From Siniperca chuatsi (lineage: Eukaryota; Chordata; Actinopteri; Centrarchiformes; Sinipercidae): a DNA stretch of 64,000 bases. The notes beneath the pieces are model-generated. The model did no database searches. It had not been told where the DNA came from and was given only the letters and a program-made list of their open reading frames with translations. Shown piece by piece: positions 24,254 to 64,000 of this stretch; positions within the stretch are counted from its first letter, which is position 1, and each line of letters opens with the position of its first letter. The stretch is from contig NC_058058.1 in NCBI RefSeq assembly GCF_020085105.1, positions 7,403,175-7,467,174 of the forward strand, read 5' to 3'. The position numbers and the translations under genes were made by a program.

Positions 24254-37999
<13,746 letters not shown>

Positions 38000-39560: not shown

Positions 39561-40193
39561 GCAGGATTTTCCGGTATTACCCCCGTTTAATTTTGTCTAA
39601 CTTGACGAAGCTGCTACTCCCTCCTCCTCCACCACCGAGGGAAACCCATCAGGAAATACCAACTGCAGAAAACAACATCACTTCCGAGAAACTTTTTTCT
39701 CAACTATTTACGTCATGTTTTGAATTAATTGCTTGTATTTCAGGTATTGAAAGTTTATATCCTATCCTATCCTTTCAGTAATTATAAGTAACATTCTACA
39801 AAATTATGACATGAACTAATAAATTAATTGTTCAATTGTGAGCATTTTTCATGGACATACACACTCCATGCTGTAGATGTCGCCAGAATCCATATAATTT
39901 TACACCAGCTCCATGCATAAACCGTAGAAGAAAATAACCAGGAAATGCTACACTTTAGCAAGAGGAATTAACACTGTTTTCCTGGCAGAAGTTGATGGAG
40001 CTGCCAGCAACAAACAGGTAACATTTTTTTATAATTCCCCCTAAATGTTTTAAATCACCTTTGCTTTAAGGTGAATTGTTTTGGTGGTGTAACAACAGTA
40101 TTGCATGTGTGATCTCTTGTTAAACAGAAGTATAAACTACAGTCCCAGCAGATGTGAATCAGTCTTGGATCTTCGCCCTTATGTTAAATTAGA
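39561..40193. other. Upstream region of olah
   Basis: Probable promoter and leader of olah. The stretch ending 'ccagcaacaaacag|gtaac' at about 40018 looks like a 5'UTR exon with a donor. An untranslated segment then precedes the ATG at 40194. No TATA box is obvious. Confidence 0.35.
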
Positions 40194-43153
40194 ATGGAAA
40201 AGGTGATCAACTGTTTCAAGAAAAAGCCAGATGCTGTGGCCCGGCTGATCTGCTTCCCCTGGGCAGGTGGAGGGTCCATACACTATGCACGCTGGGGAAA
40301 CCTCCTAAACAGCTCCATAGAAGGTAACACGCCTGGAAGATGCTGTATAAATAATAATAATAATATCTTTATTTATATAGCACTTATCAAAACAAAGTTA
40401 CAAATCACATAGCAAACAAAGAACACATAAAACATAACATAAAAACAAATAAAACACAGCACTAATAGAATAAAAATATTAAACAAACGTGCGATAAAAG
40501 TACATTATACACTTAGATTTAAAAGAAGCCACTGACTCAGCCTGACGTATTTCCTCGGGCAGGGTGTTCCAGAGCAGCCGAGAGTCTGGAGCACATAAAA
40601 GGCCCCTGTCAGAGGATCTCACGGTGCGAGCAGGGTCGCACGAGGAAGTGCTGCACTTTGCACTGTTAATCTAAACTGTTTGCGCTATATTCACACTTCC
40701 TCAGATGTTTGTAAATATTACTAATGTCTTTTATCTACAGTAAAAATCAGCTAAAAAAGGAATTATTGGAACTGGAACTTGAACTTAAAAATGATATTCT
40801 TGTACTGTGAAAACAAAGTCTACACATGTTACTGTATGATTAAATTTCTACTTGAAATGTTTTTAACACGTTTTCTGTCACTTTCAGTGTTTGCTGTCAA
40901 ACTTCCGGGCAGAGAGAGTCGCGCCAAAGAGCCGTTCTTTCAGAACATGCAGCAGATTGTGAACGAGGTTATTGGTGTGCTGTTACCGGTGCTGAAAGAG
41001 AAGCCGTTTGCTCTATTTGGCCACAGGTATGGTAACATTAGAGGTTTCATATCTGTCATGACAACACACCTCACTTCTCTCCTTTTCTCACTTTTTTTTG
41101 TTTAGTTTTTATTCCACCACTGACAACTTCTTTTCCGTTAACGGTCGCACTATCCTGATCTGTTTTAGTTTTGGTGCCTTCACGAGTTTCGCCGTGGCAG
41201 ACGCTCTGAAGAGACTGCACAGCCTCGAACCAGTTCACATCTTCCTGTCTGGTGCTTCTGCACCTTATGTGAGTTTATTTATTACATTTAGCTGTACTTC
41301 GCCAGGATTATCCACTCAGTATGCACCCAAGGGATAAAATAATAAAAACAGTCTGCACTAACACAACACTGATTAAGTGTACTAATGTCCAGATTTCAGT
41401 TTATATTTAAAAGCCTGTAGACATGTTTGTTCCTTTGTAGAACTGTCTAATTGATTATAATGGATTGCAGATAATGGCACCATAATAATGAAGGCTTGTA
41501 ATTAACATAGACAGTATCAAATCTTAACCACCATAATATTTTAATTTCCATGGCTTTAGTTTTAAAGTTTGCTATGGTTCAAAATGACAATGATATTCTT
41601 TATAATGCTCTGCAAATAAAAACATTTAGGTTAAAATGGTTATTTATTCACGACAAAGTAATTAAACCAGCATTGCGAGGCTGCAAATTTGCCTGATTGA
41701 GAGAATTTTGCTAATTATTCAGTGAGGTAAGTCAGTCAGTCCAGTTTAGTACAACACCGCCTGAAGAAAAAGAACAAAGTTTAATAAATTTAATCGATCG
41801 CACAAAATCCTGATTCAACATGCATCCATTCCATTTTCTAAACCACTTCTCCTGTTCAGGGTCGCAGGTAGTTTATACAATGTCTTCATTAAATATCTTT
41901 GATAATGTGTGGAGGAAAATCTTCAAAGATGTTGATAAATAGACGACACCATACAGTCTTTAATGACAGGTGCATATGACCAAAAAAGCCTGTAAACTGA
42001 GAAGGAAGTATCCTGCACGCTGTTCTTCACTTATTATTCAGAAGGAACTGGTTTCGATTCTAATCTTAACTGATGAAGGTCTATGGACCAAAACATCTGG
42101 TTCCTTCTATATATACAGAGTAACAACTGAACACTTTAGACTCTTTAATAGAAGACAAGGGTTTGGTGTTGATAATATACCATTAATGTGTTGTCTTTTA
42201 GTCAGAGATACGCATCAAAGCCCCAAAGAGAAGCGACTTATCTGATGACGAGTTTCTCAAGTGGTTGATTTCGATTGGAGGAACTCCCCCTGAGCTGCTG
42301 GCAAACCCTGAAGTCCTGAAGCTCTTCCTTCCTGCCCTGAAGGCCGACCTGCACATTGTGGAGAACTACAAGTGGGCTGACAACTCTGTTGCTTTATTTA
42401 ATCTGCACTTAACACATTCATTTTAAATAATTAGTGAAGAATTTCAGAATGAATGTTTGTAGTGAATTGGAGTTGCTGACTTTCCCGCAGGTGTAACAAG
42501 CCAGACAATCCATTCCTCTCCTGCCCAGTCACATGTTTTGACGGAAAGGAGGACATTTCTCATGACTTACAAGGTCAGTCCTCTGATTATTACTCACTCC
42601 ACCCTTTAATACACAGGGCCTAGGTAGGTTTCTGGATGCTCAGTATCAGAAATCATGGAATATTTGGTCTAGGCAAATTAATTTTAGATATACAAGTTGG
42701 CAGTTTGTTTACATGGACTGCATAGGATTTGAAAGATTATTGATTTAGTGCCAAATACATACAGTGCACATCAGAAAGTGCCCCACAGAAAGACACAAAC
42801 TCCTCTGGAAAAAGCTAATATTGCTCCAAAATGCATATCAGACAATAGGCAGTGTCTGTAGGTGCTCACATAAAGTATAAATGTATGTTAGTACAGTGCT
42901 GTACGTGCCCTGTGTGTGTGCTGATGACAGTGAATGAAAGAATGACATGAAATGAAAGAATGTGTCCCTGTTTTTAATTAATTAATTATATGCATGTATT
43001 TTATCAACAGCTTGGAAAGACATCACATCAGGAGATTTCACCGTCAGGATGCTTGACGGATCTCATTTTTACCTGAAGGATTCTGGAAATGAAAAGATTC
43101 TATTAGACTACGTCACGAAACACCTGGAAACATCCGAAATGGATTATTTATAA
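40194..43153 (+). CDS. olah: Oleoyl-ACP hydrolase / thioesterase II, 6 coding exons, 254 aa
   Basis: Type II thioesterase that releases acyl chains early from fatty acid synthase, yielding medium-chain fatty acids; cytosolic. Exons: 40194-40323, 40888-41026, 41169-41268, 42202-42371, 42491-42573, 43011-43153, with matching phases, 765 nt in total. The alpha/beta-hydrolase core begins [17 protein letters not shown] (residues 18-34) and continues KLPGRESR. The nucleophile elbow GHSFG gives Ser90. Asp201 in CFDGKEDI and His226 in DGSHFYL complete the triad; the 25-residue Asp-His spacing equals that in human OLAH. Length is slightly below human (about 265). It is convergent with slc9a3 (gap 1.4 kb) and divergent from ago3. 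Intron 1 contains a dispersed repeat at about 40350-40640. Confidence 0.93.
40350..40640. repeat. Dispersed repeat in olah intron 1
   Basis: Starts with (AAT)n then 'tctttatttatatagcacttatcaaaac', and ends with 'gcagggtgttccagagc' and 'ggatctcacggtgcgagcagg'. I recognise this combination as a common teleost interspersed repeat. Family assignment is uncertain. Confidence 0.55.
41822..41868. repeat. Short fragment of a common fish repeat in olah intron 3
   Basis: 'catccattccattttctaaaccacttctcctgttcagggtcgcagg'-type sequence, the recurrent core of many teleost repeats. Only this short piece is present. Confidence 0.5.
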
Positions 43154-44551: not shown

Positions 44552-47500
44552 CTACATTTGGCCTCCGTCACTGTGAGGTGGTGGAGGTGGCGGCAGCTGC
44601 TCGTTGTCCCATTCCTGCGTGTCAGGAGTGTCGGCCAGCATGAAGGAGTCGGTGGAGTGAGCGCTGATGCGAAGAGGAGCCAGGCGGCGCAGGTTGCTGG
44701 GCGTCCACGGCAGCCTCACCTGGGCTCGCTGAGAAGGAGCCACCATGCTGCTGTCGAGCTCGGCCTCCGCCAGCCACGGAGGGATCTGACCCTGTGCCGT
44801 GGGGTCCATGTCCGGTATGAAGGCTGGATTCTCAATTCCAGCTGGATGAAAGAAAGAAACTGAATTAGTGCTGACAGGGTTTAAGGGTTAAAGACATTGG
44901 TGGAAAGTAATTAAGTATAGTTATTTAAGTACGGTACTTAGAATTCTGAGGTACTTAATTGAGTATTTCCATTTTCTGCTATTTTATACTTCTACTCCAC
45001 TATAATTCAGAGGCAAATATTATACTTTTGCTTCACTTTTATCTGACAGCTATTTACTTTTCAGATTAAGATTTTACGTTAAATATAATACATTTTAAAG
45101 ATTAAACCGGTGGTTACCAACCTTTTTGGCTTGTGCCTTACTAAAAACAGTGTCTAGTTGGGGCCCCTTGTCACTTTTCAAATGCTTTTGAGTTTTTAGC
45201 TGATTTCCCCTCTAAACTTCTCAAATGGTTTCATTTAAAGTTTGAAACCCAAAGAGGTAAAATTATTCAGTGTTTCACAAAAACAGCAAAGCTTAGAGAA
45301 AAGTCCAAAAAATGAATACAAATTTGTGTAGCAGAACTTTGTTTTTTCTTCTTGGAGGGGCCCGACCCCCAGGTTTGGAACCACTAGACTAAAATACCTA
45401 ACTGTATATAAAGTAAAAAACTAGCTACAACAGTAAAATGCTTTTTACACATTGATGCATCAGTATTAACAATCTAATAATGTCAAATATAATATCAGTC
45501 ACAGGGGACATTTTACTCCAGAACCAGTACTTTTAATTTAGATACTTTTGTACATTTTTCTGATAATACTTGAATGAAGGGCTTTTATTTATAATGGAGT
45601 ATTTCTGGAATGTTGTACTGGTACTTTTACTTAAGTAAAGGATCTGAATACTTCTTCCACCAGTGGTTAAAGATAAGTGGACAAGATGGTGGACTTTTAC
45701 CTCCTGCTCTGTAGGTGACCCTCGTGTGGAATGAACTGCCTGATGCCTCATAGCCAAAGGTGCTGTCTCCTTCTGAGAACTCAAAATCTAGAGAAAAAAA
45801 GAGAAAATGTTTTTCAAAAAAGTACTTTTTCATTAACTACTTGGACTATTATATATATTATTATGTATATTTTTTTAAACTGAAATACAAACCTTCATCA
45901 CCAGAGTGGTAGCTTTTAGTTTTGTCCATTGATTTTCCATTTGGCATCTGCAGCAAATAGAGTAGTCATTATATTTGTAAATTACATCTTAAAACTAAGT
46001 TACAAAATGTGAAAAGCAAAGCCGTAATACGCATGTTTTGAATATTAAGGCTGGGTATTATTTGCAATTTTTGGTACTAGTGCAGAGTGGGTACAATACC
46101 AAAATTATGCTTTTTTAATACCTTACTTTGATAAATATAATCATGTTTCTCTGCAAAACTTTTTTTTGATTTAATAAAAGAAACCAAAGTCCTAAAAAAA
46201 AAGTTATGTAAACAATCAGTCGCACAAGAACTTTTAATAAAAGAAACCAAAGTCCTAAAAAAAGTTATGTAAACAATCAGTCGCACAAGAACTGTCTAAA
46301 TAAATTAGTATGAAATTAGCAAAATTATGATTTAAATCAGGTTATATCTGATCAGAAAATAAGTTTACAAGATTACAAATCTGGACAGATATTTGATTAC
46401 AGCTTTCGTTACTTGGCAGTTTTTGATACTTAGTGCTGTGAACACCTTTTGGTTGCTACCAAAAAAGTATTGAAGTTCAGGATCCTTTTGGCTGTTGTGT
46501 AAAACTCTATGTATGTCATACTGTCTAATAAAAATGAATTCTGAGGCTCTGACCTTTTGCTGTTGGTCTTTCTTTGTGTACTTGGTAATTGGCTTTGGTG
46601 GAGCAATGCCCATCTTTGCAGACTTAAAGGACTCCAAGCGATTCCTCATGGTCCTCTGGAAGATCTCCTGCACCTCATTTTCATCCTGGTTGACATCGAA
46701 ATGGCTCCGGCTGTACCTGTGCCGGTGCTTTAAACCAGAAAACCAGAAACAAAAATGGAAGAGTCAGTATGAGAATTTGAGAACTTGTTTTTGATAAGAC
46801 AAAGAGGACAAGAAGTCTGTAACTTGTTACTCATCCAGAATGTTTATCAAGTTTCAGACATTGTTTTTAAAGGGACACTCCACCAATTTTACACATAAAA
46901 TTCAGTTTCTCTCATGAGGAGTACTACTCAACCTCTGAAAACAGGTGTATAATGTCTTCTGTGGCTTCTAAAGTTTCAAAAAATAACCATGATGATGGGT
47001 TATCTTGCATTACAAACTGGGGATGTAGGGTTTGAAAGAAGGGGGTGATTAGGTTACAGGTGGCATCAAAGAAAGCTGTTATTGTGTTGCATTATGGGAA
47101 ATGTAGAATACAGCATTTCTGGGGATGGAGGCATAGTAGGGAATAAAAATCTGAATATATTGGCCTCTGCTGCATCAATTTTACTTTTCTTTTTAAAAAT
47201 CTGTCATTTAACTATATGGAAGCGTAATACTAAACTGCTGTAGTACACTTGTCATGTGATGAATGTAGTGTATATAGTGATGTGACTGAAAATGCTTACC
47301 TGTTTCCTGCCCTTGTACAGATGCTGCTGCAGCAGGTGGTGAGTGTTAATGTCCTCTGTTTCCCTCATACCCTTCATGTTCTGTTCATGCATTTCCAGGC
47401 TCACTGATGGCACAGGGTCTCTTCTACAGCAGGAAAAGTCATGCCAGTTACTTCATGTCTTTATCACACTCAAGTATGGCACTAATTTAGGCTTCTCATA

Positions 47501-50500
47501 CAAAATATGGTGAAGAATTGGAGCTAGATGGTCAGTGCAAGATCATTTCTACTAGTTTGGTTTGTTTGGAAGTGTGAAAGAAAAATGCTGTGACTGCTTG
47601 TGGTCACCAGGGGCCAGTGTCTGTGCAGATCTAATGTAAGTAGATGTTCAATGAAAATAGCAGAAAAGATATGTCCATCTTCAGATTCATAGCTTAAATG
47701 AAAATAATGAAAGGAATTGGAGAGCTTTTTAGTAATTGTTCTTAAAGAGTTCTTCACCAGCTGATTGTACACTGGCTTGTATTTTCTGTGATTGTGGTGT
47801 ACATCTGGTAAAAGTGTTTATTCACCTTATATGGGACATTGCAGCGTAATCGTCTGACATGTCAGCCATGATGTCAGGCATGATTTCTGAGAATTCGTCA
47901 CCAAACTTTTTCTTGAAGTCGATAAATGCAGTTTCATTGCGGATAAACTCCAGAGAGCCTCTACGTTCACCCTGCAACAGGGAGACCATTTCATGTTTGT
48001 TCCCTTTAATGTCCACTTGAACAAAATACACTTGAATATACAACAACAAACGTATGCAGCATATGACCCTCACCTCAGCCACGTAGCTCATAGCATCCTT
48101 GAGGTTCAACTGATGGAAGACGTTGACGACGTGGTTGAGGTTCTTCCTCGCCGACGGCTTCATCAAAATTCTCGTCATCCACTTCTCCTCAAAATTATTC
48201 CACCTTTATAGCAAGAGAAGAAAATTGTAGCTTCATTCAAACAGTTCAGAAATTTTACGAGTTAAATCATTAAAAATGTCTTTACATACTTGTCCCTCAT
48301 GTAGTTATGTCCTATTTGTCCAGATATATCTTCTATGGCAACAAGCATGTGGTCAAACACCTAAACAACAAAAACAGAGATTCTGTAATAGTTGGACTGT
48401 AGCCCGGTAGTTTATGGTTCTCGGTGTTGTTTAATTTTGAGCTTTACCTTGTTCTGCACTTTTTCTATGAGTGTGAGCTCAGCCAATGCAGCTCTCTTTA
48501 CTTTAAGCCAGGTGACCAGAGGTTTCATCGTTATTCCCTGCAACAGAAAGAGATTCAAGCAAAGGTTTAGCAAAATTAAGCTGTTATGTGTTTTGTGTAA
48601 GTAAGCTGCAAAAAAAAAAAAAAAAATGTACCAATAACTATTTTAACTTGGTAACAAGACAGAAAAGTGGTTACCTGAAGAATGACAGTGAAGTACACTA
48701 CAATGAGAGTAGTGCAGATCATCAGATTCTTCTCCTTTATCTTTTTCTCATCCAGCAAAGTAGCCAGACCATATGCCACAGCCCCTCGCAGGCCACCGTA
48801 GCTCATAATCAACTGATCTATGAACTCCACGGGGACCAGCCTGTACTTGTTCAGCATCCAGGTGAGAATAAAGACGCCTGTAGTATACATGTAGACAAAC
48901 ACAAACACAATCTGTTTTGTGACCTCTGACATCAGATAGTGTACTGTTTGCATTCAAAACTGACAGCAAAAGACAAAATCTCACCGATGAATCTATACAC
49001 AAAGATGAAGAAGAGCGTGAGGAGGATGAAGCCCGTGTTCCACACCCAGATTGTCGTATCAATGGCAGAGATGCCGAGGAACACGAAGATGATGGTTTCT
49101 GATCCGTTGGCTAAAACCTTCATGACATATCTGACTGTGAGGACAGACTTCTCGTCCATGTTTGCATTTATGTACTTCTGGCAGCACACACCACAGAAGA
49201 CGATCCTACAGAACAAAAACACAGAAATAAACTTAGTATGAACAAGCTTGATTTTAATAATAAAAACAAATGAGATGTTTTTCATGGAGTACTCACGAAA
49301 GGATGGAAGAGAGGGAGAGCATCTCAGCAGTCAGGTAGGAGAGGTAGCCCAAGACAAAGATGAAGCCTGCCTCGATGATCTGGATGTTTTTAGTGCATCT
49401 GGTCAGAAGAGAGACCAGCAGGCCAAACACAAAGCCCATGAGGGAACCACCAAACGCCACCACAAAGAAGGAAACTAGAGAGAGAGAAAGAGGACATATG
49501 TATAACTTGGATTATATGCTGTTTGAACACTTTTATCCAAAATAGCCCTATGTAAACATGTCTGCATACATACAGCATCTCTGAAACCAACCCCCAGTTG
49601 AGTCTATTGAGCCAGGCAGGTAAATAAATGTCACTTCTTACTTATTCCTTTGATGATCTCCACAGCATCAATTCTGGATCCTCCCAGTGACACAAACGCA
49701 TCAAATACATTGAAGAGCACCTAGGAGAAGAAGAAAAAGAGAAATGGATATAACATATAGACATGCTATAATTACTGGACTGATCTTCATCGTTTCCTGT
49801 GTTTTAGGCTAAATTGAGATTGTGTATTAGACATTAGGCTACGCACATAAATTTACTTGACTTCTTGTTTCCAAACTTAAGAAAAATTATCTTGTTTTTT
49901 AACTGGCTTCCACATCACTTGAACACATTTTAGAAAAGTGTTTCTTCAGCTCCCAGTAGTTAAATAATTAGGAATATTGTCCTCACATGTATATTGTCGA
50001 TTATCCAATTCACAGATGATGTGTGAGGTGTCATCACACCTCATCTATACATGATGAAGACCATGTGGTCAAAACATTGTCATGTCCACGTAGAATGAAA
50101 GAAGAACTGGGAATGAAAGAGCAGTGTGCAGATATTTTTTCGTATTTTGGTGCAGATTATTGTTACACAGCACCTGCAACAAATGAAGGGATGTTCAAAC
50201 ACCAAAATTGGAGCTTCAAAGTTTTGATGTGACAACAGTGCAATGCTTTTTTCAATAAGCCTCAGAGATGACATAGTGTCTTAAACACTGTTTTTAGAAA
50301 GTTGAAAGTAACACCTTTTTATTCCCTTTCACTCCTCTGTGTAGTTTCAGCAATCATTAGAGTGGAGTAAGAGTTTCATGATTCATAACACATAGAAGCA
50401 ATATTTCTTATTAGAACAACCACCTCAAAAAGCACTTTAATTGACCAGTGAAAGACAAAGTTCAGGCAAGGTAAAGGTCCTTACTTTGAAGAGCAGAATC

Positions 50501-53500
50501 TTAGCATTCTTTAAACTTCATGTCTTGGAAGTGTACTTTCCAATGATAGATGTCTCAGCAAACTCACAACTGTTCCACTTCTTAGGTAACATCAACAAAA
50601 AGTTAAGCACAGCAGTTGCCTAGCATCATAGCATACGAACCACTGTCACACCGTCGTTGAGCAGCGACTCTCCAAACACCAAGATGAAGAGGACCTCGTT
50701 GACGTGGACTTGCTCAAACACGGCGATAACGGCTACGGGGTCCACAGCAGCAATCAGACTGCCAAAGAGAAGATACTGCAGCAGACCAATTTCCAGGTCA
50801 CCTGTAGCATGCAGGGCAGGAGATACACTAAATCAGGCTTTTATTTAATGTAGCTGAGCAAGAAGTTGAAAGAACCTGTAGGAAATCAAGCCCTTTAACA
50901 ACCCTACAATCCACTAGTTACCTTAAAATCCTATGACAGGCCCTTCTAAATCGCTATAGCCATACCAGCAGCATGGCTCTATGGATGATAAAGTCCAGAC
51001 TAATATCTCAACAACTATTGGATGGAATGCCATGCAGTTTGATACAGACAATCATGGTAATAACTAGTATAACTCTGTCTCAGACCTCTCTCCAATCCCT
51101 CTTATCAAATAAAAGTATTTGTCACCGTAGTGCAGTGGTTTTCAAAGCCTGACACTGTGGGCACCCTTTTTTTTGCCTACATTTGTTGAAACTCACAAAT
51201 GGCCCTATCTAGAGCCAGTGTTTGGTTTGTCCGTTCTGGGCTACTGTATAAACATGGCAGTGCAACATGGCAGTCTCCGTGGAAGGAGACCCGCTCCCTC
51301 TGTAGATAAAAACGGCTTATTCTAAGGTAACAAAAACACAATGATTCTTATTTTCAGGCGATTATACACTAATGAAAACTTACTTATATTATATTCCATT
51401 TCTGCCAATGGCTCCCCCTAAATGTTACACACTGGACCTTTAAAGTATGCCGAATTAGCCATTAGCACTTCCTGTTTGCAATGTACCCATTAATGTACAG
51501 ACAACTATTACTGGACTTTGATACTAAAGAAAACTTCAAAAAGTGATGATTCTCAGTCAAGTTCTGGAGTAAAAAGGAGTGCCTTTTTTCTATGACTTCT
51601 AAGTAGGTTTATGGACGTTTATTCGCAATGGAGATAACGATATTGTCAGCAAATGAAAGTCACACTGACTCTAAAAATATGTGTCATATCATGTCTGTGT
51701 GTTCAGATTTGAGTGAGTTATGACTCAGAGAAGGAGTGCAGTTTGGTTTATATTGTCACTCTGAATAATCCCTTCCTATCTTAGACCCCACCACAAATAT
51801 CCAGTTTCAACTAGAAATAAATAACAGAAAGAAATCAGTGGCAGGCAGCCACCTGAAGTGAATTAAAGTGAAAGTCCCTCTTACCCATGGCTCCTCCCTT
51901 GTCACACCCCCACAGCGACAACCCTAAGGTGGCAGCGTTCCAGACGGTCCCGATGACGGCGTAGACCAGGATGGCCCCCATGTTGCTGAAGAAGAGCTTG
52001 TTTGGCATGGAGTAGCCCGTGTCCAGGATGATTTGAGGCAACAGGAAGTAGAAGAACACTGTTGGGTTCAGCTTGAAGGTTTGCACCTTGTCTGCACCCC
52101 AAACTATCCCACCCAGAATGAAGCCAAAGCAGATGAGTAGGGCGCTCTCTGGGATCACATTGGTCACATGGTGGTTGGCCTCGATGACTGAGAGAAGAGA
52201 AGGATAGTTTTTCTTGAAATTGATCAAAAACAAATAAGATTTAATGTGAGACTTTCTCTAGTGGGTTCCAACACAAGAACCAGCACGTGTATTTTCATAA
52301 TAACCAATACAACTGAATTTTCTTAAGATTTGGGACAAGGCTGTCTGTATTCAATTTTGGTTGTAGTTTAAACCATAAAACTAAAACCCTTTGTGAGGTT
52401 GCAAAATTTGCAAATGATCAACTGTTGCACTCAACTGAGAAAGTGCGATCCTGGGCATAGGATTAACCAGCATGGAAGTGTGTATTAAGGTTTAAAAATC
52501 TCTCTACGTAACTAAAGACAGACTTTTGCTTAAGGTTACTTGACTTAATGGCCTGACAAAGTGTCACTAAAGCTTATTTAATAATCAAACCTACTGAACC
52601 ATTAGGATAGACCCAATTACCCAATGTTGATTTCTCTGTCGAGCCCACAGCGCGAGACTTTTGTTGTGCTGATATGTTCCATTTAAAAGTACTTGAAGAT
52701 TAAATTAAGGAAACTTTGGATGAAGGTCTGTTACATTTCAATACTGTGTTTATATTTGTACATGAGAGTGGAAGAGAAGAAGCTAAGAGAGAAGTGGAAG
52801 ATCAGTGTAAAACTGTAAATATGATGCATCTTTTTTCACTTATTTTAGCACACAAGCTTTGCGGTATTTAGTATTCAATAAGATCAAACATCAAACAATG
52901 AAGTGATTATAAAGGGTCTAAAACTCTTGACAATCTGTGGAATTTCTAATACATTACAAACATGAAGAAACTCTTCTGTTCTCAGGAACAGCATGCTGTG
53001 CTGATAACACAGACTACTGATCACTGCTGCAACCAGTGACACTGTTTGTTACAATATTAGAGGCACATCACAGTGCATGGTTAAAGGCCCTGAACGGCCA
53101 TTTTCTCAATCAGCTTCTTACTATTAGCAATGGGGTCCTAGATGAACATACAGTTTTCAGCCAAAGATAGAACAACTTTGGTTATTTCACATTACAGATT
53201 TCTGTATTTGTGTTTTTGTTCTTGCTGTCACTGGTTTTAAGTGGGCAGATCGTTGGAAAAACGTGATGTCAGGTATTTCTGTGCACCAATCAGATTTCAG
53301 CAATATTTGAATCAAAATCTGACAACAGTTATGTGGTTGTTTTGTTGGAGGCACTGTCAGTCAGATCTGATTAAACCACACCCGCACAGTCCCGATGAAG
53401 CAGATCAGCTGAGTTTTATGAGAATAAATTATAAGGATATTTTTTTCAGACTTTAACTTTAATTGTTGCTTGTTTAGTCATGAATATTTAATGTCATAAA

Positions 53501-54717
53501 GAAACACTTGAAAAGTAATTGTTCAGCGGCTTTAAATAAACAAATATAAATGAATCTTCCCTCCTTTCACAAAACTACTTTTAATGCGTATTCTAACATA
53601 GACCTAACAAGAGTTTTCCAGTGTGTATAACAACATTGTAATTATTTTTCATTGGGTGGGTTACAAATAGCTCAACATTATCTTCTTGAACAGAGGAATT
53701 TGTCGGACTGCAACATCCAAACTACGTGTGACATAACTCTTAACAAGCTGACGCATTGCTATTTGGGCTCTTCTTAACTTCTTTTCTCATCTCATAAGAC
53801 TAATAGTCATATGAGATGAGAAACTGGTATTAACTGGTAACTGGTAGTCCATATTTCCAGTCTAAAACACCTTTCAAGCACATTTTATTTCCTAAAATGT
53901 TTGTTACATACCCAATTTAGCCAAACCAGCCACCAATATCCATAATGCAACTAGATAAGGGGTCTTCACATGGTGCCACTTAAAGGTCACGATCTGTATT
54001 CCTATGATGCTGGAGCCAAGGTCAGGTTCAGTCTGATTCAAGTTCGATTTTGGCTCTGATGGCTTCAGGTGGGATTCTTGATGTGTTAGCGCCACGCCCC
54101 CATTCACCCTTGTGACCCCTGAGATGAGGCAGATCAGTAACACTGACCCCAACAGCCAGAAGTGTACATATCCACAGTGTTGCATTTGATCAGATGAATT
54201 TAAAAAATAGAATGAAAAGAGAGGCCACACTCCAAAAAACGTCCTTCGTCTTAAACTGTCTGTTCAAGGCCTGGCTGAAAACTGACAGACAATGTGTCAC
54301 ACTTTGGATCCCTCCTTTTTTTTGTGGGTTTCTGCTTCCTCTGTCTCACTAGTTTACTATCACTGTCTTTTCACTACTCTATCTCCTCCTCTTTCCCTCT
54401 AGTGTTCTATCTTTCTATCTCAGTCTGTGACTTTGTATCTTCATTCCTCTCACAGTCTGCGGTCAGCAGCGAAGTGTGCAGAACCCTGGACTCAGCCTTT
54501 TATATGGACAGTATCTCCTCTATGACCAAGGTTGTGTGTGCGTGTGTGTGTGCGTGTGTGTGTGTGTGTGTGTTTAGGTTTGGAGTATTAAAGGGGGAGT
54601 AACGGATGTCCAAGAAAGGTCTCCAGTTATTCAGTCACATTTGAAACATTCACCAGTCATTGCTTTACTTGTGCTTTCTGGTCTCTAACGCATCCTCTCA
54701 GGTTTGTCATGACACAT

Positions 54718-54795
<78 letters not shown>

Positions 54796-57700
54796 AGTGA
54801 GGAAGTAAGTGATGGAGCAGAGGTCATTTGATAGATGTTGAACGAATACCTGTGTGTGTGTTTAGGAACATTTCCACTTGCTTCATCTCACAGCTTTGTG
54901 CTTATTAATGATTGACACTGACGTTACTCAATCCTGGTTAAAGACTCCCAGTCACTTGACGTGAGAGAAATGAGAAAGCTGTCCTCTAGAATGTCCCTAA
55001 ATAAACTACTACTATGATATAATGGAGCTATGATTCAGTTAATATTCAGCCTATTCCTTTGAAATTTTTTACATTAACTTACACTAACTACAAAATTAAA
55101 TATCCGTAATTTATAGAAAATTGTACAGATTCTATGATTTTCTTATTGTCAACAAATCCAATGGAAAGACCAAAACCAACAACTGAAACTACTGAGAAGT
55201 ATTGCCTGTGTTGCAAAAGCCTGATATATTTTATTCTAATGGGTTATAGAACTCCATTGTTGTCCAATGCAGCAAACGTGTGTTAATCTGCAGCTGAAAA
55301 TAGTTCCCAAAAAAGTTCACCATTTACTCTTGCTTGAGTAACGTTTGCTAAAAGCTAACACTGCCCAGCTGTTTTAGGAAATTACTGAGTCATTTTTAAA
55401 AACTGTATATTTCCAAGCCATTGTTAAAGATTTATGTCTTCAGTAGTAATCAATGGGTCAATGAGTTCCACAGACAGAGTAGGGAAGTTGGAAAGTATTA
55501 AGAGATAGACTCAGGAAAAGCCCAAAACCAATAATGTTTTATGAGTTGTTGACTATAAGAAAAATATGGAATAACTGCAGCCTTATCCTTTAAATGACCA
55601 CTACAGTTTTTAAAAAGGAAGCAAACTCAGGTCTGTGCATGGCTGACAACACAAACATCTCTCCATAGAGAAACTGTGAAATGGACTCTCTGCATCCTCC
55701 TGTACATACTGTACTTATTCCCATAATCGTTGATTCACTGTGTGAACCAGTATGTCTCTACTAAGAGCTTTATGTAAGGGACAAAAATATCTGACATTGC
55801 TCAAATGGAAATTAATTGTGTAATGTATTATTTGGTAATTTATTCATTTATTGTATTTGGTAAGTTATTCATTTCACAGTGGAGTTAATATAATTCAGCA
55901 TAATTACTAATTCAGTTAAATAATTTGACAGCCATTAATAAGTTTGGTCTATTGAAAAATTAAAGCAGCTTTATACTGTATCTGATAGACATCTTGATGG
56001 ATTCTGATGTACTCTAAATGCTGTAAATCATTCCTAAAGAACATTTAGCTGCACAGCCTGCACACTGAAGCGTGAACTTATTAACTAATGACCTAATATA
56101 TCTTGCAGTATCTAACAGTGGCTGGCCATTCACTTAAACCTTTCAATCATTCTAAAATGGCCACAGCTATGTGCACACTTTTAACAGCTACAGAGAGAGG
56201 TCAACTTCATGGTGAAAAAGAGAGGTCACTCAAAGGTTGTTTTCAGACTGGGAGGTACGGTAGCTACAGTTAAGGAGTGTTACTGTTTGTCAGGCTACTG
56301 TGAAAAATCTATTTTTGCTCTATGAAATGTAATTTGTGACCTCACCCAGCAAACGCTTTAGTGTGAAAGCAAACGCTATTCATTTTGAGAAATGTCAAAT
56401 GAGTAACTCTATGAGGGACAAGCTGTAGGGAGTCAAAAGATCAGAGACACTGACACTGACAGTACATGTGAAAAATGTCCCTGTGTCCCTGGACTGAAAA
56501 GAAATTAACCTAAACTTCTGAAATGTGTAATAATTCCATTTTGATTATACAAAATGTTTCCAGGTGAGGTCAGACCAGAGAAGTTACGTTCATGCACTGA
56601 CTGACGGGTGAAAAGGAAGCGTTCCAGCCCATGACAGATATGTAAACCTGCATTTATTGTCAATTGTCCTTCAGTTAGCTTAGAGCAGAGGGAATAGACT
56701 GCATTTCAGCGAACTACAATGAGTAAGCATAATGTCAACATTTATAATGTGCACATATTGTTTGTGTTTTGGTTTATAACTTACTTCGATTACTTTATGT
56801 AACCGATTTGTTCCAGTTACTTTAAAAATAAGTTTGACAAACCAACAACATCAATTCTTAAATCATATTGAAATTCATAACACAAAGTAAAGTACATGCC
56901 AATGGTTTCCAGATTCAAAACAAATTTGTCCTATTATCTCTATATCCATAAAATTTGCCTATATGAAATAGCAGACTTAGTGGTAACATTTTAGAGATGT
57001 CCTCTAATCCTCGTGTAAATGTTTGCCTTTTACACAACCTTTGCTTTTTCTAATGTTTTTGTTTTAACTATTTCAAGAGTGAACTGTAAATTAATTAACC
57101 ATAAATTACCTCGAGGGAATGTGGCGATTTTGATAGATAAGCTGTCGTTTTAAAATCTTTCCAATTCAAGAAAATTGTTAAAAACCCATACTTGCAAATC
57201 AGTTTTTAGATTTTAAATAAACTTAATCTATGTTGAGTCAAATTTAAAGTATTTAACTTCTCTAAAATTTGGAAGCATTTCTTTGCACAAAAACTCAACT
57301 CAAGACAAATGTCAGTAGCTGCAGAAACATCTGCCAAAACCATTCATAACATATTTCTTTGTTATCATTAATAACCTCTTGTGCAAGTTACTGTCAGTAC
57401 AAACACGGCTGTAACATTTTCAGCCAAAACTGATCTATCTACTGTAACTACACGCAGTCATTTCCTGCATCATATACAGACAACCACAGTCCCATATGTA
57501 TGTAATTGGAGGTGTACACAACCGGAAAATATGCACACATACACATACAGTGCTGCATTTGTTGTGTATACATGAAATGCTAATGACCATGTTCCGTAAT
57601 CACTGCAGGACAATACAAGTAGGCTTAGGTCAAGATCTCTTTAGGCCCCATTTATGTCCAATTCAGAAGCGTATTTTGTCCGGTTCAATCAAAGCATCTG

Positions 57701-59000
57701 AATTTGAAACACAGACATCTTGTAACGTGATACTGGGTGACAGCTTTTATCAAAACTGCCTGACAGTACCATGAATTGATGATATTTTACAGACCCAGTT
57801 GCAACCAATCCCTAAACTTTGGAATGAGGTTGGGCGATGTGACGATATATACAATGAAGGCAGCTACACCTTTAATATCTGTGATTAAGTACTTCGATTT
57901 TTCAGGTATTTAATTCACTGATTTAATTCAGTACATGTAACCAGATACTCTCATCTGGTTATTTTATCTATTAATGGTTTCTTCATTGAATTTCCATAAA
58001 GATTGTTATGCAATACAATTCAACAGCATCACAAACTCTCAGCTTCCAGAATGAGCATCAAGTTCAATCAACACCTCAAAAACTGCTTATAACATAACAT
58101 GAAGGTTGGATTTATTTCAGCAGTGTTGTTTTGGACTGCATTAGTTTTCTCTAGGTATACCTAATAAACTGGTAACAGAGTGTGTGATCAGCTTATAAAA
58201 TATGATGCATTGCTATAGATTAAACTACCCAACTGTATTAAAGTAGTTAAAATCCAGTAATATTATATATATAATAATATAACAACTCTTCACATTACTT
58301 TAACTTTTGATCCTTAAGTAGATATTGCTGATAATATTTCTGTACTTTTGCTTAAGTTAAATTATAAATCCATGACTTTTACTTGTATTGAAGTCCACTG
58401 TGGTATTGATACTTTTACTTAACTAAACCAGTTACTTAACCAGTACTTCCTCCACAACTGCTATCAACCACCCTTACCTCTGAAGTGTTCATTTTGCACT
58501 CTACTCACTGACAAAACACCCTAATCAGTCAATTGTTAACTCTAATTACCACAATAAGTTTATCAAAAATATACTAATCTAAATTGTATTTACTATTAAA
58601 ATAATCGTTTTTAGGGCACTGAGCTGTATTAGATGTAGCTAGAGTCAGATCAGCCCTCCATGGACAAGACTTGTTAGGACTCACCGAGTTTGCAAAGCCA
58701 GCTGACCAGGACCCAGAGAGCCACCAGGTACGGGGTGGATACATGTCCCCACTTCCAGGTCACAATAGGTAGAGTGGTGATGGGCTTTCCTCCATGACCA
58801 TCGCCACCTTCTCCGGTGTCTCCGCTCGTGTTATGGCCTGAGTCCGTCCCGTGGCTGGTGCCCGAGTCTGAGCTTGAGGTGGTCCCTTGACCACTGCTCA
58901 CCGCACTGCTGCGCTGTGTGACTTTGTTGGCCAGGCTCGAGCTTCTGGACACCATCAGCAACATACAGAGAAAAAGTGCAAATCGCCAAGTGGCTGCCAT
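44552..59000 (-). CDS. slc9a3: Na+/H+ exchanger 3 (NHE3), 16 coding exon positions
   Basis: Apical electroneutral Na+/H+ exchanger; in fish, used for gut absorption and for Na+ uptake/acid secretion by gill ionocytes. Exons in transcript order: 1a 59000-58685 (or 1b 54185-53912), 52187-51885, 50801-50641, 49720-49642, 49474-49297, 49205-48985, 48877-48675, 48537-48448, 48360-48290, 48203-48074, 47971-47826, 47423-47300, 46727-46554, 45947-45893, 45787-45701, 44841-44552. Phases match; 2628 nt via 1a (875 aa), 2586 nt via 1b (861 aa); human NHE3 is 834. Transport core: [40 protein letters not shown]. The C-terminus shares QIFRTMRxRLESFKSxK-like sequence and [13 protein letters not shown] with NHE3, against NHE1/2. 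Donor after exon 3 is GTTCGT. The tail lacks part of the human linker. Paralogue (3.1/3.2) not resolvable. Confidence 0.94.
44895..45665. mobile_element. Composite hAT element with perfect 8-bp target duplication, slc9a3 intron 15
   Basis: CATTGGTGGAAAG at the left and TTCTTCCACCAGTG at the right form the terminal inverted repeat. GTTAAAGA occurs directly on both sides (44887-44894 and 45666-45673), a perfect 8-bp target duplication. The interior contains a second element at 45108-45385. No transposase ORF. Confidence 0.88.
45108..45385. mobile_element. Nested hAT-like element (CAGTGGTTCCCAACCT type)
   Basis: Left end CGGTGGTTACCAACCTTTTT and right end AGGTTTGGAACCACTA are inverted. Flanks GATTAAAC (45100-45107) and GACTAAAA (45386-45393) agree at 6 of 8 bases, a probable old target duplication. 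It is inserted inside the element at 44895-45665. Confidence 0.75.
46865..47200. repeat. Dispersed repeat ('aaagggacactccaccaatttt') in slc9a3 intron 12
   Basis: Begins 'ttaaagggacactccaccaattttacaca' and contains 'gaggagtactactcaacctctga', matching a common teleost repeat as I know it. A related copy, split by a hAT insertion, lies at 59565-60120 (shared 'aaggagtactactcagc'). Confidence 0.6.
51150..51440. repeat. Dispersed repeat in slc9a3 intron 2
   Basis: Contains 'tctccgtggaaggagacccgctccct', 'aaaacggcttattctaaggtaac', 'gcgattatacactaatgaaaac' and 'ccctaaatgttacacactggaccttt', a module series I recognise from teleost interspersed repeats. Upstream, 51000-51060 carries a piece of the 'tttagcaggtataatg' family ('caacaactattggatggaatgcc'). 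Confidence 0.6.
52188..53911. other. Intron between slc9a3 exon 1b and exon 2
   Basis: No coding exon detected. About 53080-53460 ('ttaaaggccctgaacggcc' to 'caccaatcagatttcagcaatatttg') looks like another dispersed repeat, not confirmed by a second copy here. Confidence 0.4.
53912..54185 (-). CDS. slc9a3: slc9a3 alternative first coding exon 1b
   Basis: Encodes [23 protein letters not shown], a good signal peptide, a short linker with an NQT glycosylation site, and [18 protein letters not shown] leading into the first exchanger-domain helix. The donor GTATGT leaves phase 1, so it joins exon 2 (52187) in frame. It is homologous to exon 1a (58685-59000) only over the last ~28 residues. An in-frame ATG at 54230 would add 15 residues before the signal peptide and is less likely. 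A TATA box lies about 310 bp upstream (54496-54504). Confidence 0.8.
54496..54504 (-). promoter_or_regulatory. slc9a3: TATA box of the slc9a3 exon 1b promoter
   Basis: TATAAAAGG on the minus strand, about 310 bp upstream of the exon 1b start codon, implying a start near 54470 and a 5'UTR of about 285 nt. A (TG)n tract begins about 30 bp further upstream. Confidence 0.55.
54533..54574. repeat. (TG)n microsatellite beside the exon 1b TATA box
   Basis: About 20 TG units with two C interruptions ('tgcgtgtg'). It sits immediately upstream of the TATA box with respect to slc9a3 transcription. Confidence 0.93.
54722..54793. repeat. (TG)n microsatellite upstream of exon 1b
   Basis: About 36 uninterrupted TG units, roughly 220 bp upstream of the exon 1b TATA box. 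Confidence 0.96.
55260..55590. repeat. Dispersed repeat ('agctgaaaatag' family), copy 2
   Basis: Same ordered modules as 12150-12490: 'cagctgaaaatagttccc', 'tttgctaaaagctaac', 'gtagggaagttggaaa', 'ataagaaaaatatggaataactgcag'. It lies between slc9a3 exons 1a and 1b. Confidence 0.65.
55591..58129. other. Gap between slc9a3 exons 1a and 1b
   Basis: I looked for further exchanger exons here, which a whole tandem gene duplicate would leave, and found none. The sequence is AT-rich. 'tgggcgatgtgacgatatat' near 57830 is a fragment of a common fish repeat. Confidence 0.5.
58130..58460. mobile_element. hAT element, CAGTGGTGGAA family, right portion, no nested insert
   Basis: Contains 'gatgcattgctatagattaaactaccc', 'ttttacttgtattgaagtcc' and ends 'cagtacttcctccacaactg', a degraded form of TTCTTCCACCACTG. 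The 'agattaaact' site is uninterrupted, unlike the copies at 38831 and 44895. The left end is not visible. Confidence 0.65.
58685..59000 (-). CDS. slc9a3: slc9a3 first coding exon 1a (distal)
   Basis: Encodes [20 protein letters not shown], a signal peptide, then an ~55-residue Ser/Thr/Gly/His/Asp-rich extracellular segment, then [19 protein letters not shown] and the start of the first helix. The donor GTGAGT leaves phase 1 and joins exon 2. Compared with exon 1b the linker is longer and unrelated. No clear TATA box was seen just upstream. Confidence 0.85.
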
Positions 59001-59564
59001 GTTTGGGAAAATTGCTCCACTCTTAGTTAACTGTGATTTAGGCTGACTTAAGTGCTCAGGTCAACCTCAGATTGTGTGCGAGTCTCTCATTCCCTTTCTG
59101 TGTTTCCTCTTTCCCACTCAGATATCTTTCATTTTGTTCTTACATACACCCACATCTTTATCTGGCCTGAGCACTGCGGCTCCCTTTCTGCTCTCCTCTC
59201 TGACAGGGATACAGCTTTTTACAACAGGTGAGGTTCAGCCCATCCTGATGCTAGTCTGTCTCCTCCCACTTTGTACCCAGACCAGCTAGTTTGACCACTT
59301 TACTCAGAAGAAGATTTGATGCTCTCGTACTTTCTTTATTGGCTGCGAATGCTTTATAAGAATGTTTTCACTGATGTTAAACTTCTCGCACATAATTTAT
59401 TGCAAAATACCCTCACTTTAGAAGAAATTCCTTCTTTGAATTGAAGTCCTTTTACAAATTTCAAGGAATCCTGTCCTAAGAGCTTGGTTGAAGTATATTA
59501 GTGGTATGTTTCTACATTTGATGGTTGAAAAATTATTTGTTTTATTTTCTTATTTTTGGCCATG
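59001..59564. other. Upstream region of slc9a3 exon 1a
   Basis: Presumed distal promoter. No convincing TATA, exon or repeat. A TTATAAAG on the minus strand near 59350 is a weak candidate only. Confidence 0.3.
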
Positions 59565-60120
59565 ATGAAGGGCCACTCTTCACACATCAAGTTGAGTTTA
59601 CTAGTCATAAGGAGTACTACTCAGCAGTGGTATAGTGTCCATTAGGGATATAATTATTGAAATGAAACAATTAATGAAGTAATCAATTAGTCTATCGACA
59701 TACATCCTTTAGTTTCAGCTTCTCAGTTGTAAAGATTTTGTCTTATGTGATAGTAAACTGAATATCTTTGGGTTTTAAATTGTTACTAGAGCAAAACAAG
59801 CAATTTCAAGACCACACCTTCGGCTTTAGGAATTTGTGATGGGCACTTTCTGTATTTTTTGACATTTTTTAGACCAACAATTAATCAGTTATTCAAGAAA
59901 ATATTTGGCAGATAAATCAATAATAATAATTGTATATAATAATCAACAATTAGTTGCAGTCTTAGTGTCCATCATGGCTCTGGAGGAGCTATTTCCAAAG
60001 TCTGAAAACATAAGCCTGATGATGTCATTAAGGTTATCTCAGCTTGGGCTTGGATATTACACATTTTTAATGGAAAGTCTGCATCACAAACTGGAGTATT
60101 TTAGAGTTGTGGGTATATGA
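59565..60120. repeat. Dispersed repeat split by a hAT insertion
   Basis: The left part (to 59640) and right part (from 59963) together resemble the 46865-47200 family ('aaggagtactactcagc'). The middle is the hAT element at 59641-59962. Confidence 0.5.
59641..59962. mobile_element. hAT element ('gggctgcaactaa' family) with perfect 8-bp target duplication
   Basis: 322 bp flanked on both sides by TAGTGTCC (59633-59640 and 59963-59970). The right end reads 'aattagttgcagtct' and the left end is a mutated inverse. The interior holds 'actgaatatctttgggtttt', as in the other copies. This fixes the family as hAT-like by its 8-bp duplication. Confidence 0.85.
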
Positions 60121-60330
60121 CAAGACCGCTGAACACATCTTTGTAATGGAGTCCATGTGGACCGGCAACACAAACTGACCACATCTGCCTTTTATCACTT
60201 GAAAAATATTGTGCCCGTTTCTCTCCCAGGCCAATACTGAGAAACTTGTGCACACTTTTATCACTAGTAGGCTGGACTATTGTAATGCTCTACTTTCTGG
60301 TCAGGAGCCAAAAAGATTGGTAACCACTGC
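60120..60330 (+). mobile_element. L2/CR1-type reverse transcriptase fragment
   Basis: Plus-strand reading gives SAFYHLKNIVPVSLPG, then after a frameshift NTEKLVHTFITSRLDYCNAL, which matches the thumb-side region of fish L2/Rex1-type reverse transcriptases. It is truncated at both ends. 'aaaaagattggtaaccactg' at about 60311-60330 is the end of a CAGTGGTTCCCAACC-type hAT fragment. Confidence 0.7.
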
Positions 60331-62345
60331 TAAATCACTTATTTGGAAGTGACAATAAAGGTATATATTAAAGCAAGTATCCAAACAGTTTGTTGTAAAT
60401 GTACATTAGTTTTAGCAGAGTTACTTCCCGGTTCAAACCTGACCTCTCATGTTCGCTGTAGTTGTGCATGAATGTCATTTTGTAGTGCAAGATTTCAGGT
60501 AAATTCACCTGTATTTTTACTTTCAAGTAAGTAGTCTAGAAAATTTGTTTGAACTTGTTTTAAGACTGTATAATTGTTGCATAGTTTGTGTTGTTTGCCC
60601 TAATAGAATGTATAGCATGTCTAGCAATGCAACCATATCCCCAGATTACAGCAATGAAACTTTAACCAATAGGAATGATGGGCAAAACTACAAAAATAAG
60701 ATCCAGGTTGTAAGAGAAATAGAAATGTTTTATCAAATACATTTTGTATTTCATATGGCCTTCTGAAACCTTAACACCTTACACCTTAACCAGGATTTTC
60801 TGGAAGAAGAAATATTATACTTTATCTTACTTTATCACCTCCTCCAAGTGGCTTTGTTCAGTAAAACAGACCCTTCTATCCCTCACTGTATCCTTGTGTG
60901 TTTGTGACTATCACTGTGTGTGCATGTCTTTCTCAGAGTTTTACATAAATGTATACAGTAATTATCCAATGATGTGAGGACAGGAAGGCAGTTTGACTCA
61001 TTTGTCTCCCTTATTGGAAAGGCGCGCCTGTACACCCAACATCCCCTCCTCTCGCCAAATTGCACAACAGTGACTGTGTTGAGCCTTTATTGCCAGTATG
61101 CATGTGTGTTTAGGTGACAGAGACTTTTAAATGAACCTTAGTTTTGACATGCAGTTTCGTTTCCATGAGGCAAGGTTTGCTTCCCTGCTGGGCAGAATCC
61201 CTTTTGTTAAAATTTAAACAGCCGTATCAGCTCCCAGAACCTCAGGAGACTTTCATTCTCACTCACTCAGATAAGTCAGGGCATACATCTGGGATGTTGA
61301 GGAAATGTGCAATCAGGGTCTTTCCAGAAATCCAGTATTTTACAAAAATCCCAAAGAACAAATGTACCAAAAAGAGAGTGTTTAAGTACATATTTTCCTT
61401 GTAACTTGTTGGCCAAGAGTGTTGGGGATGTTTAATGAGGAAATTAGACCCTTTATGTATTAGCCTTACAATGAATAACCTGAATTCTTAATTTGGCTCT
61501 CTTCAGTTTGACATATTTTTTGGATCTATAAGACATGTCAAACTTACATATCTTGATGTGACTTCGCAGATTTTTGTATCCTCATAAGTGCCGTAGATAA
61601 CAAAAAATAACATTGTTATAAATACATACATACTGTTATCACTTTCTCCTTATCGCATGGCTTAACTTTTCACTAAATTTCCTTGAAATCTGTAAACAAG
61701 TGTTTGAGATATATCAATAACCAAAAAAAGCGAGCAAACATTCTACATACTACAAATGCTAAGAACTACAAAGACGCAAACAAAATCCTGTTACTTTTAG
61801 CTGCATTAAGCAGAAAATTAGACTCATCTTAACATGTAAATCCACACGGAAACCTGCACAGTCAGTTTCATGCTGGTGTTCTCTTCCGGGACACCAGCAC
61901 AGACTTTAGGGGAGCTGTTTGCAGCTCTGTTGACAGTTTATGAGTAAACGGGCTACATTGATTGCTACCCAAGATAGATCAGACACCTGTATCTGAGGTC
62001 AGTGGTAATCAGAGGGTCTCTGTGAGGGCAGCAGTCAACAAAGAAGTGCCTGTGGCTGTGACTTGACCTTTAAGTTCGGGCATCAACAGGAAACTTGTTG
62101 GAAGGAACCAGATCAGACTCGCACCAGGACACCATGGGGGTTTTGGTATAAATAAAAGGGTTAGCCTTTAGACCTCTATGTAATATCATCAGAATTACAT
62201 TTAATTGAGTCACAAATGCAATAAATCAACATCAGTCTGTTTAAACGTAGTGCAATTATGATTAGTCAACGATTCCATTACACAACCGACAAAAAAATTA
62301 TGAACAAATCCGATAATAAATTGTTCGATCATTTATCAAGCAACA
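60331..62345. other. Gene-free AT-rich stretch
   Basis: Several short open frames but none with recognisable protein features. No RNA gene seen. Confidence 0.4.
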
Positions 62346-62470
62346 ATACTACAGCCATGCTAGCAGAGGCTGGCGCTTTGAGCTAAATGCTAACATCAGC
62401 ATGCTGAACATGCTGAACAAAGACTTAGTTTAGCATGTTAGTGTGTTAGCATTAACACCTCTGGCAATTT
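62346..62470. repeat. Fragment of the 'gctaacatg' repeat family
   Basis: 'gctaaatgctaacatcagcatgctgaacatgctgaac' and 'tttagcatgttagtgtgttagcatt' are modules of the family at 12890 and 17495, in rearranged or inverted order. Confidence 0.55.
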
Positions 62471-63049
62471 TACCTATTTCATAAACTAAATGATTAATTC
62501 ATTAAATGGGAAAACAACAAAACAAACAATTTGAAGACGTCACCGTCTATTACAGTTATAGTCGTGTCTTAATAATACTGTTAGGGCTGCAGCTCGGTCG
62601 TTGTATGTACACATGAAACACACAGTGCCACACAAAGCTTGCACACCAGACTATATACAGCATGTCATTCTACAGATTGAAATACAGACCATGAAAACTT
62701 ATCAATGAGAGTACTGACTTGCATGTTATGTGATGGGAACGTTTACAGTAGAGAATGCTGAGTCACAGAGAGGAAGAAACATCAGCGAAAATAAAACCTA
62801 ACTGGAACTTTCCTCATTATTAACAAGTTTTCAGTGTTTATATTTAGATTAGTGATCGTCCCTGCCAATATCTTATTGATTGATTTGACATGCTTATGTC
62901 TATTAATACATTCAATACAGTCAATAAATGCCCAGTGACTGCTTTTTTTCTTTTATCATACAAAGCATGCTCACAAACACTCCACATAAGTAAATTTATG
63001 TTTTTTTAATTCTCTGCCACATTTTTGAGACTGCAAAGTACTTTCTGTC

Positions 63050-64000
63050 ATGACAAAATGGAACGAGATGAGGATGAACTTGGGGCTTTCTACAACAAAT
63101 CAAAATGAGCCTCCTCTCAGGAAGGAGAGAGAAGGCACACATGACCCCATCCACATTAACAGGATGGCTGTTGAGCGTGTCTCCATCTTCAAGTTCCTGG
63201 GGACTCATATTTTGGAAAACCTGTCCTGGACCACCAACACCTCCTGCCTGGTCAAGAAGGCTCACCAGCGCCTCTTCTTCCTGAGGACACTGAAGAAGAA
63301 CCGACTGTCCTCAGCTATCCTGGTGAACTTCTATCGCTGCACAGTAGAGAGCATCCTAACCAACTGTGTCACAGTCTGGTATGGGAACTGCTCTGCTGCA
63401 GAGCGCAAGGCACTGGAGCGGGTGGTGAAAACTGCCCAGCACATCACAGGGACTCCACTTCCAGCCATTGAGGACATCCAGAGGAAACGCTGTCTGTGTC
63501 GAGCCTGCAGCATTCTTTAGGACTCCGCCAGAGACAGGCGCCTCAGGTGCCTCCGGACAAGGACCAGCAGACTGAGAAACAGCTTTTTTCCCCAGAGCTG
63601 TCTTCCTACTGAACTCTGCCCTCCGCTGATTCCACTGTCCCCTCATATACCTTAACTTTAAATGCTGTTATATTGTTTTTGCTACATGTACCACATGTTC
63701 ATTTGCACTACTGGACTATTTATTTATACATATACTGCATCATTTGCACTCCAGTACTATGTACTGAATACTGCAATAACTCATCTACTGCACTGTTAAC
63801 TATTTCCATAAATTGCACTCCTTTATATTCATTGCACTACTGTTCTGCCTAGTCCAATTCATTATTCTACATATCCATCAGTATACTTCTGTTTATAGTA
63901 ATGCCATCTGTATATAATGTCCATAGTACCACTTGTAAATATTTTCATAATATTGCTCTATCCTGCATTTATGCACACACTTTATATCCTGCACTAACTT
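63050..64000 (+). mobile_element. Decayed L2/CR1-type LINE, RT C-terminus and 3'UTR
   Basis: Plus-strand reading from about 63170 gives FKFLGTHILENLSWTTNTS, QRLFFLRTLKKN, FYRCTVESILTNCVTVWYGN and RLRNSFF, the conserved C-terminal part of fish L2/Rex-type reverse transcriptases. There is an in-frame stop at 63518-63520, and a frameshift in the T-run near 63585-63590, so it is not functional. The sequence after about 63650 is the AT-rich LINE 3'UTR and continues past the window end. Confidence 0.82.

Follow-up and report, generated by a model that had tools for sequence, protein, structure and literature searches.

Genes with alternative first exons have been described before, as in the case of claudin-10, where this exon codes for the first membrane-spanning helix and loop. 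In fishes the exchanger NHE3 takes up Na+ and performs acid-base work in the gill, the gut and the kidney, and mammalian NHE3 is not known to have an alternative first coding exon. Claudin-10a and claudin-10b have been reported in different nephron segments, the exact pattern being disputed (PMC7140793). For NBCe1 (SLC4A4), PMC5979485 describes tissue-specific forms, naming variants of kidney, of intestine/pancreas and of brain, and a promoter in intron 3 is cited among its references. For mosquito (aegypti) NHE3, splice variants are described in terms of sites in the carboxy tail and a form that is truncated, with no alternative first exon described in the part of that source that was available. 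Stickleback slc9a3.2, lowered in kidney, has been termed a splicing variant, and the accessible text leaves it ambiguous whether a splice form or a second gene is meant (PMC12181344); nothing on slc9a3 forms was found in the available part of PMC8215749. No report of an alternative first exon of slc9a3/NHE3 in vertebrates was found in sources that were in part accessible, most subscription papers and database gene models lying outside the search.

Here we analyse a stretch of 64,000 nucleotides of Siniperca chuatsi, hereafter the window, which corresponds to C17:7403175-7467174 of the genome assembly (718.8 Mb, 65 contigs). A preliminary description had proposed that it contains two tandem first coding exons, 1a and 1b, for slc9a3. 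We consider it probable, from comparison of the sequences, that the window holds one intact slc9a3-type gene with two alternative first coding exons that would have arisen when exon 1 was duplicated in tandem long ago. Both forms may already be present in the automated annotation of related fishes.

Gene model and gene identity

All exons after the first were assembled manually on the basis of splice sites and open frames, with hand-set boundaries (Table 1). The minus-strand NHE3 gene is intact: 15 shared exons, bounded by AG acceptors and GT donors, occupy 52187 to 44552, and joining them to 1a or 1b gives proteins of 875 and 861 aa respectively, each from one open frame of 16 exons with a single terminal stop. 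Our check confirmed the coordinates proposed for the first exons, their two ATGs and phase-1 donors, and the continuation in frame into exon 2 at 52187.

Table 1. Features of the window and the second NHE3-like gene (positions in the window unless a contig is given; a slash in a motif marks the splice site).
Feature	Position	Strand	Details
Exon 1a	58685..59000	-	ATG, hydrophobic leader, linker, EL1 and TM1 core, donor TCG/GTGAGT, phase 1
Intron from exon 1a to exon 2	52188..58684	-	6497 bases, 1b inside; gene model
Candidate TATA box of a putative 1b promoter, TATAAAAG	54497..54504	-	in intron 1a, 319 bases before the 1b ATG
Exon 1b	53912..54185	-	ATG, hydrophobic leader, linker, EL1 and TM1 core, donor TGG/GTATGT, phase 1
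Exon 2, common to both forms	51885..52187	-	acceptor CTCTCAG/TCATC
Exons 3-16, whole span	44552..50801	-	AG acceptors, GT donors, open until stop
Exons 3-6	50801-50641, 49720-49642, 49474-49297, 49205-48985	-	hand-built gene model
Exons 7-10	48877-48675, 48537-48448, 48360-48290, 48203-48074	-	hand-built gene model
Exons 11-14	47971-47826, 47423-47300, 46727-46554, 45947-45893	-	hand-built gene model
Exons 15-16	45787-45701, 44841-44552	-	hand-built gene model
163-aa open frame	63029-63517	+	Pfam PF09004 (ALKBH8_N), E 6.6e-16
Second NHE3-like gene	C1:747212-753865		exons 2, 3, 5-7 recognised; 49-76% identity to the window gene, exon by exon

The protein contains a Na_H_Exchanger domain (PF00999, E 4.7e-81, 273 bits against a cut-off of 26.2). 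Its closest solved relative, taken over the whole protein, is the NHE3 of PDB 7x2u (866 bits, residues 62-695), followed by NHE1 (446 bits), and exon 2 alone is 63% identical to the former over 100 columns. In an exon 2 tree of nine rows the window gene, which forms a long branch, and the 7x2u NHE3 join at 89/92, below the star threshold of the tool, with the second NHE3-like gene on C1 joining next at 92/89. With NHE1 and NHE3 as references, similarity places the window gene closer to the NHE3 type than to NHE1 and to the other exchanger copies of the genome that are presumed to be of NHE2 and NHE5 types.

Some further features of the window were observed. The intron between exons 13 and 14 contains two head-to-tail copies of 61 bases with 96% matches (46170-46293). 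Neighbouring the gene, at 32949-33601 (-) and 40188-40409 (+), are Argonaute-like frames, with ArgoN matches at E 2.1e-6 and 9.7e-4, as well as a frame resembling a thioesterase (E 0.0022). Each of these matches is under the Pfam cut-off, and human NHE3 is not known to have such an Argonaute neighbour. The 163-aa open frame at 63029-63517 resembles the end of a LINE-type reverse transcriptase.

Homology and age of the two first exons

Signal peptides had been proposed for both first exons. A hydrophobic leader is present in each as determined by Kyte-Doolittle hydrophobicity alone (best 11-residue mean 3.01 in 1a and 3.05 in 1b), its cleavage being a prediction. The linker, counted from residue 21 to the core, is Ser/Thr/Gly-rich in 1a, where it has 58 residues (13 S, 9 T, 12 G, 3 H); that of 1b is 44 residues long. 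The preliminary description had given a Ser/Thr/Gly/His-rich linker of about 55 residues for 1a and a short one for 1b. The NQT sequon considered typical of 1b is not distinctive, since each exon has one sequon, NTS at residues 57-59 in 1a and NQT at residue 50 in 1b. The first 70 residues of 1a lack a recognisable family, the sole Pfam match scoring 22.8 bits against a cut-off of 40, and no relatives of exon 1a were found in bacterial/archaeal and viral collections, which were searched as a contamination check. Such a beginning, with a match so far under the cut-off, could be taken to mean that 1a belongs to another transcript, coding for instance for a short secreted protein, and is never joined to NHE3; with the last 35 residues being NHE3-type EL1/TM1 and a donor phase that fits exon 2, we hold this to be very improbable.

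The homology of the 3' ends, correctly recognised in the preliminary description, covers 35 residues with 63% identity. A tblastn search of 52200-64000 (11.8 kb) with the 1b-form protein matched exon 1a with 22/35 identical residues (E 3.6e-9), and only these two first exons were found, the next match having an E-value of 1.4; no other exchanger exon was thus found between them. Genome-wide, 1a as query identified 1b at E 8.7e-6 and 1b identified 1a at E 2.2e-5, first exons of other exchangers appearing at E 0.12 to 6.9. No further NHE3-type core was detected with either first exon in these searches, which missed three of the five first-exon cores known from other members of the family (C9, C12, C24), such that a diverged copy could escape. 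The 40 kb upstream, beyond the window, contain no exchanger exon at E 1, and no second NHE3 gene copy was found in these 40 kb. As judged from the protein sequences, the homology of 1a and 1b is not a matter of chance.

In the last 27 codons, 20/27 residues and 48/81 bases are identical between 1a and 1b, with 17, 22 and 9 of 27 identities at the first, second and third codon position. NG86 analysis of this 27-codon core gave a pS of 0.87, which is saturated, and a pN of 0.27. In keeping with such saturation, the DNA match of the core is at chance level (E 0.35) when 3.0 kb surrounding 1a are compared with 3.3 kb surrounding 1b, and no flank or intron aligns any better. The saturated pS and limited pN therefore indicate that the duplication is old and that its common end has been kept by selection on the protein; this signal of lasting constraint is a sum over time, obtained from 27 codons of the core alone, and would be compatible with a recent loss of one exon. 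Chance similarity and a recent assembly duplication were both rejected, given the strong protein match, the saturated synonymous sites and the chance-level identity of the flanking DNA. Of the interpretation suggested before, exon duplication is supported, as are the intactness of both copies, their compatibility with exon 2 and the lasting constraint on the common end.

The core of 1b shares 18/27 residues with the NHE3 of 7x2u and that of 1a 14/27, and with five other first-exon cores of the genome these counts are 8-12 for 1b and 7-9 for 1a. Since 1b is closer to the 7x2u NHE3 over these 27 residues, it is probably the older type. The simplest reading, suggestive at this number of residues, is that 1b retains more of the ancestral sequence and that 1a is the copy that evolved faster and arose once this lineage had separated from that of the tetrapods. 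The larger distance of 1a, as well as the fact that fishes have tandem NHE3 duplicates, such as zebrafish slc9a3.1 and slc9a3.2, would also agree with 1a being a decaying, unused remnant of a former tandem NHE3 copy of which the other exons were lost. This we consider unlikely, as no trace of exons 2-16 was detected between 1a and 1b, in 52200-64000 or in the 40 kb beyond, and as 1a, despite saturation of synonymous sites, retains its open frame, its ATG, its donor and the greater part of the TM1 residues. If such a remnant had been taken into use as an alternative exon, the outcome would again be two alternative first coding exons.

Neutral simulations of unconstrained change without indels were performed with 4000 runs each. 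Exon 1a remained stop-free in 3.9% of runs at 0.5 substitutions per site and in 1.7% at 1.0; it remained stop-free with its ATG kept in 1.1% and 0.15% respectively. At 0.5 substitutions per site, 0.075% of the runs preserved a core with at least 18/27 identical residues.

Promoters, start codons and other exchanger genes

Separate promoters for 1a and 1b, as put forward in the preliminary description, are predicted as likely from the anatomy of the gene, 1b being placed 4.5 kb inside the 1a intron. The candidate TATA box of 1b, TATAAAAG, occurs six times in the window versus 3.72 expected and so lends weak support; upstream of 1a there are only TATA-like variants, at 59358 and 59221. HNF1-type sites are at chance level (4 versus 5.24 expected), and neither kind of promoter motif exceeded chance. 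Just upstream of the candidate 1b promoter are TG/CA microsatellites at 54722-54793 (36 copies) and 54533-54573 (about 20 copies), a candidate source of length variation in the control of 1b. The start context is good in 1a (AAAC/ATGG, the slash here preceding the ATG) and poor in 1b (TCAA/ATGC, with C at -3 and C at +4). The 600 bases preceding the start contain nine upstream ATGs in 1a and seven in 1b, and a short uORF of 9 aa at 54444 is located between TATAAAAG and the 1b ATG.

It could be that both exons are transcribed with one form dominant everywhere, the other representing a low-level start without a distinct role. The strong start context and GC-rich sequence of 1a (57% GC in the exon versus 36% in the intron), the weak context of 1b and the lack of a convincing promoter motif at either exon would fit this. 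A constrained protein combined with saturated synonymous divergence is, however, unexpected for an exon without a role, and we regard this as a rather improbable explanation.

With two functional alternative first exons, which we prefer, transcription that starts upstream of 1a would yield a first intron that skips 1b, 1a being spliced to exon 2, and a start in the 1a intron just upstream of 1b would yield 1b spliced to exon 2. The mature exchangers, predicted to have lost their leaders by cleavage, would be the same from exon 2 on. The outer linker would differ, long, Ser/Thr/Gly-rich and perhaps O-glycosylated in the 1a form and shorter in the 1b form. Different promoters would probably lead to different expression by tissue or salinity. 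If both forms are used, N-terminal antibodies, start-codon morpholinos, probes and expression counts based on one form will miss the other.

Exon 2 of the window gene matches six further loci in the genome. Five of these six contain exactly one first-exon core each, and no second first exon was found in these five genes, in 10-20 kb searched per locus. The joined pieces of the second NHE3-like gene, on C1, score 469 bits to the NHE3 of 7x2u versus 350 to NHE1 by phmmer. No first exon of this gene was recognised in part of the 40 kb upstream, an absence that means little. PMC5979485 assigns zebrafish NHE3b (SLC9A3.2) to the apical membrane of one type of gill/skin ionocyte. The preliminary description had envisaged a gut versus ionocyte use of the two forms; this idea has a competitor because of the second NHE3-like gene, which could carry such a division of labour instead of 1a and 1b.

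EL1, TM1 and the comparison with known systems

In the NHE1-CHP1 structure, according to PMC8190280, EL1 (before TM1) of one subunit covers TM8-9 of the other, D95', H98' and V99' help to build the cariporide pocket, and TM1-TM8' contacts are formed by positions 99, 103, 106, 107, 109, 110, 114, 117 and 121. We aligned 1a and 1b to NHE1 numbering 90-117, contact position 121 being beyond the alignment. The two exons differ at 8 of the 28 aligned positions (90, 94, 97, 100, 109, 112, 113, 115). They are identical at seven of the eight TM8'-contact positions in the alignment, position 109 being I/V, and have the same residue at pocket positions 95, 98 and 99; the scarcity of differences is not significant for contact positions (P 0.24) or for contact and pocket positions combined (P 0.12). 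This pattern, not significant by itself, fits a TM1 of 1a that would still work in the dimer, and the mature forms would differ in EL1 and at positions of TM1 that mostly lie away from the dimer contacts of NHE1. At pocket position 95, which is D in NHE1 and E in the NHE3 of 7x2u, both 1a and 1b have a lysine, a charge reversal that might alter inhibitor binding in Siniperca chuatsi.

The two forms had been described as differing in the extracellular N-terminus. This holds for the outer linker and is too narrow otherwise: as TM1 and EL1 are part of the same exon, the difference would extend beyond a loosely attached N-terminus to the dimerisation domain. The 1a and 1b forms would also provide a natural test of the role of EL1 and TM1 in the NHE dimer. 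Since EL1 of one NHE1 subunit covers the outer pocket of the other, exon choice might even tune the exchanger, by way of the pocket-adjacent residues (NHE1 positions 94, 97, 100) and TM1, with differences in affinity for Na+, response to pH or sensitivity to inhibitors, including in mixed 1a/1b dimers. We consider such tuning, proposed by analogy with NHE1, unlikely; if true, a single fish gene could supply forms of NHE3 suited to fresh water, to sea water or to the gut lumen.

A parallel to this predicted arrangement is claudin-10, of which PMC7140793 describes 10a and 10b as two splice variants of one gene with different first exons. Claudin-10 is a tight-junction pore of which both transcripts have been reported, whereas the window gene is an exchanger of which both transcripts are predicted. 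The variable end of NBCe1 is cytoplasmic, whereas that of the window gene would consist of the leader, the outer linker and TM1.
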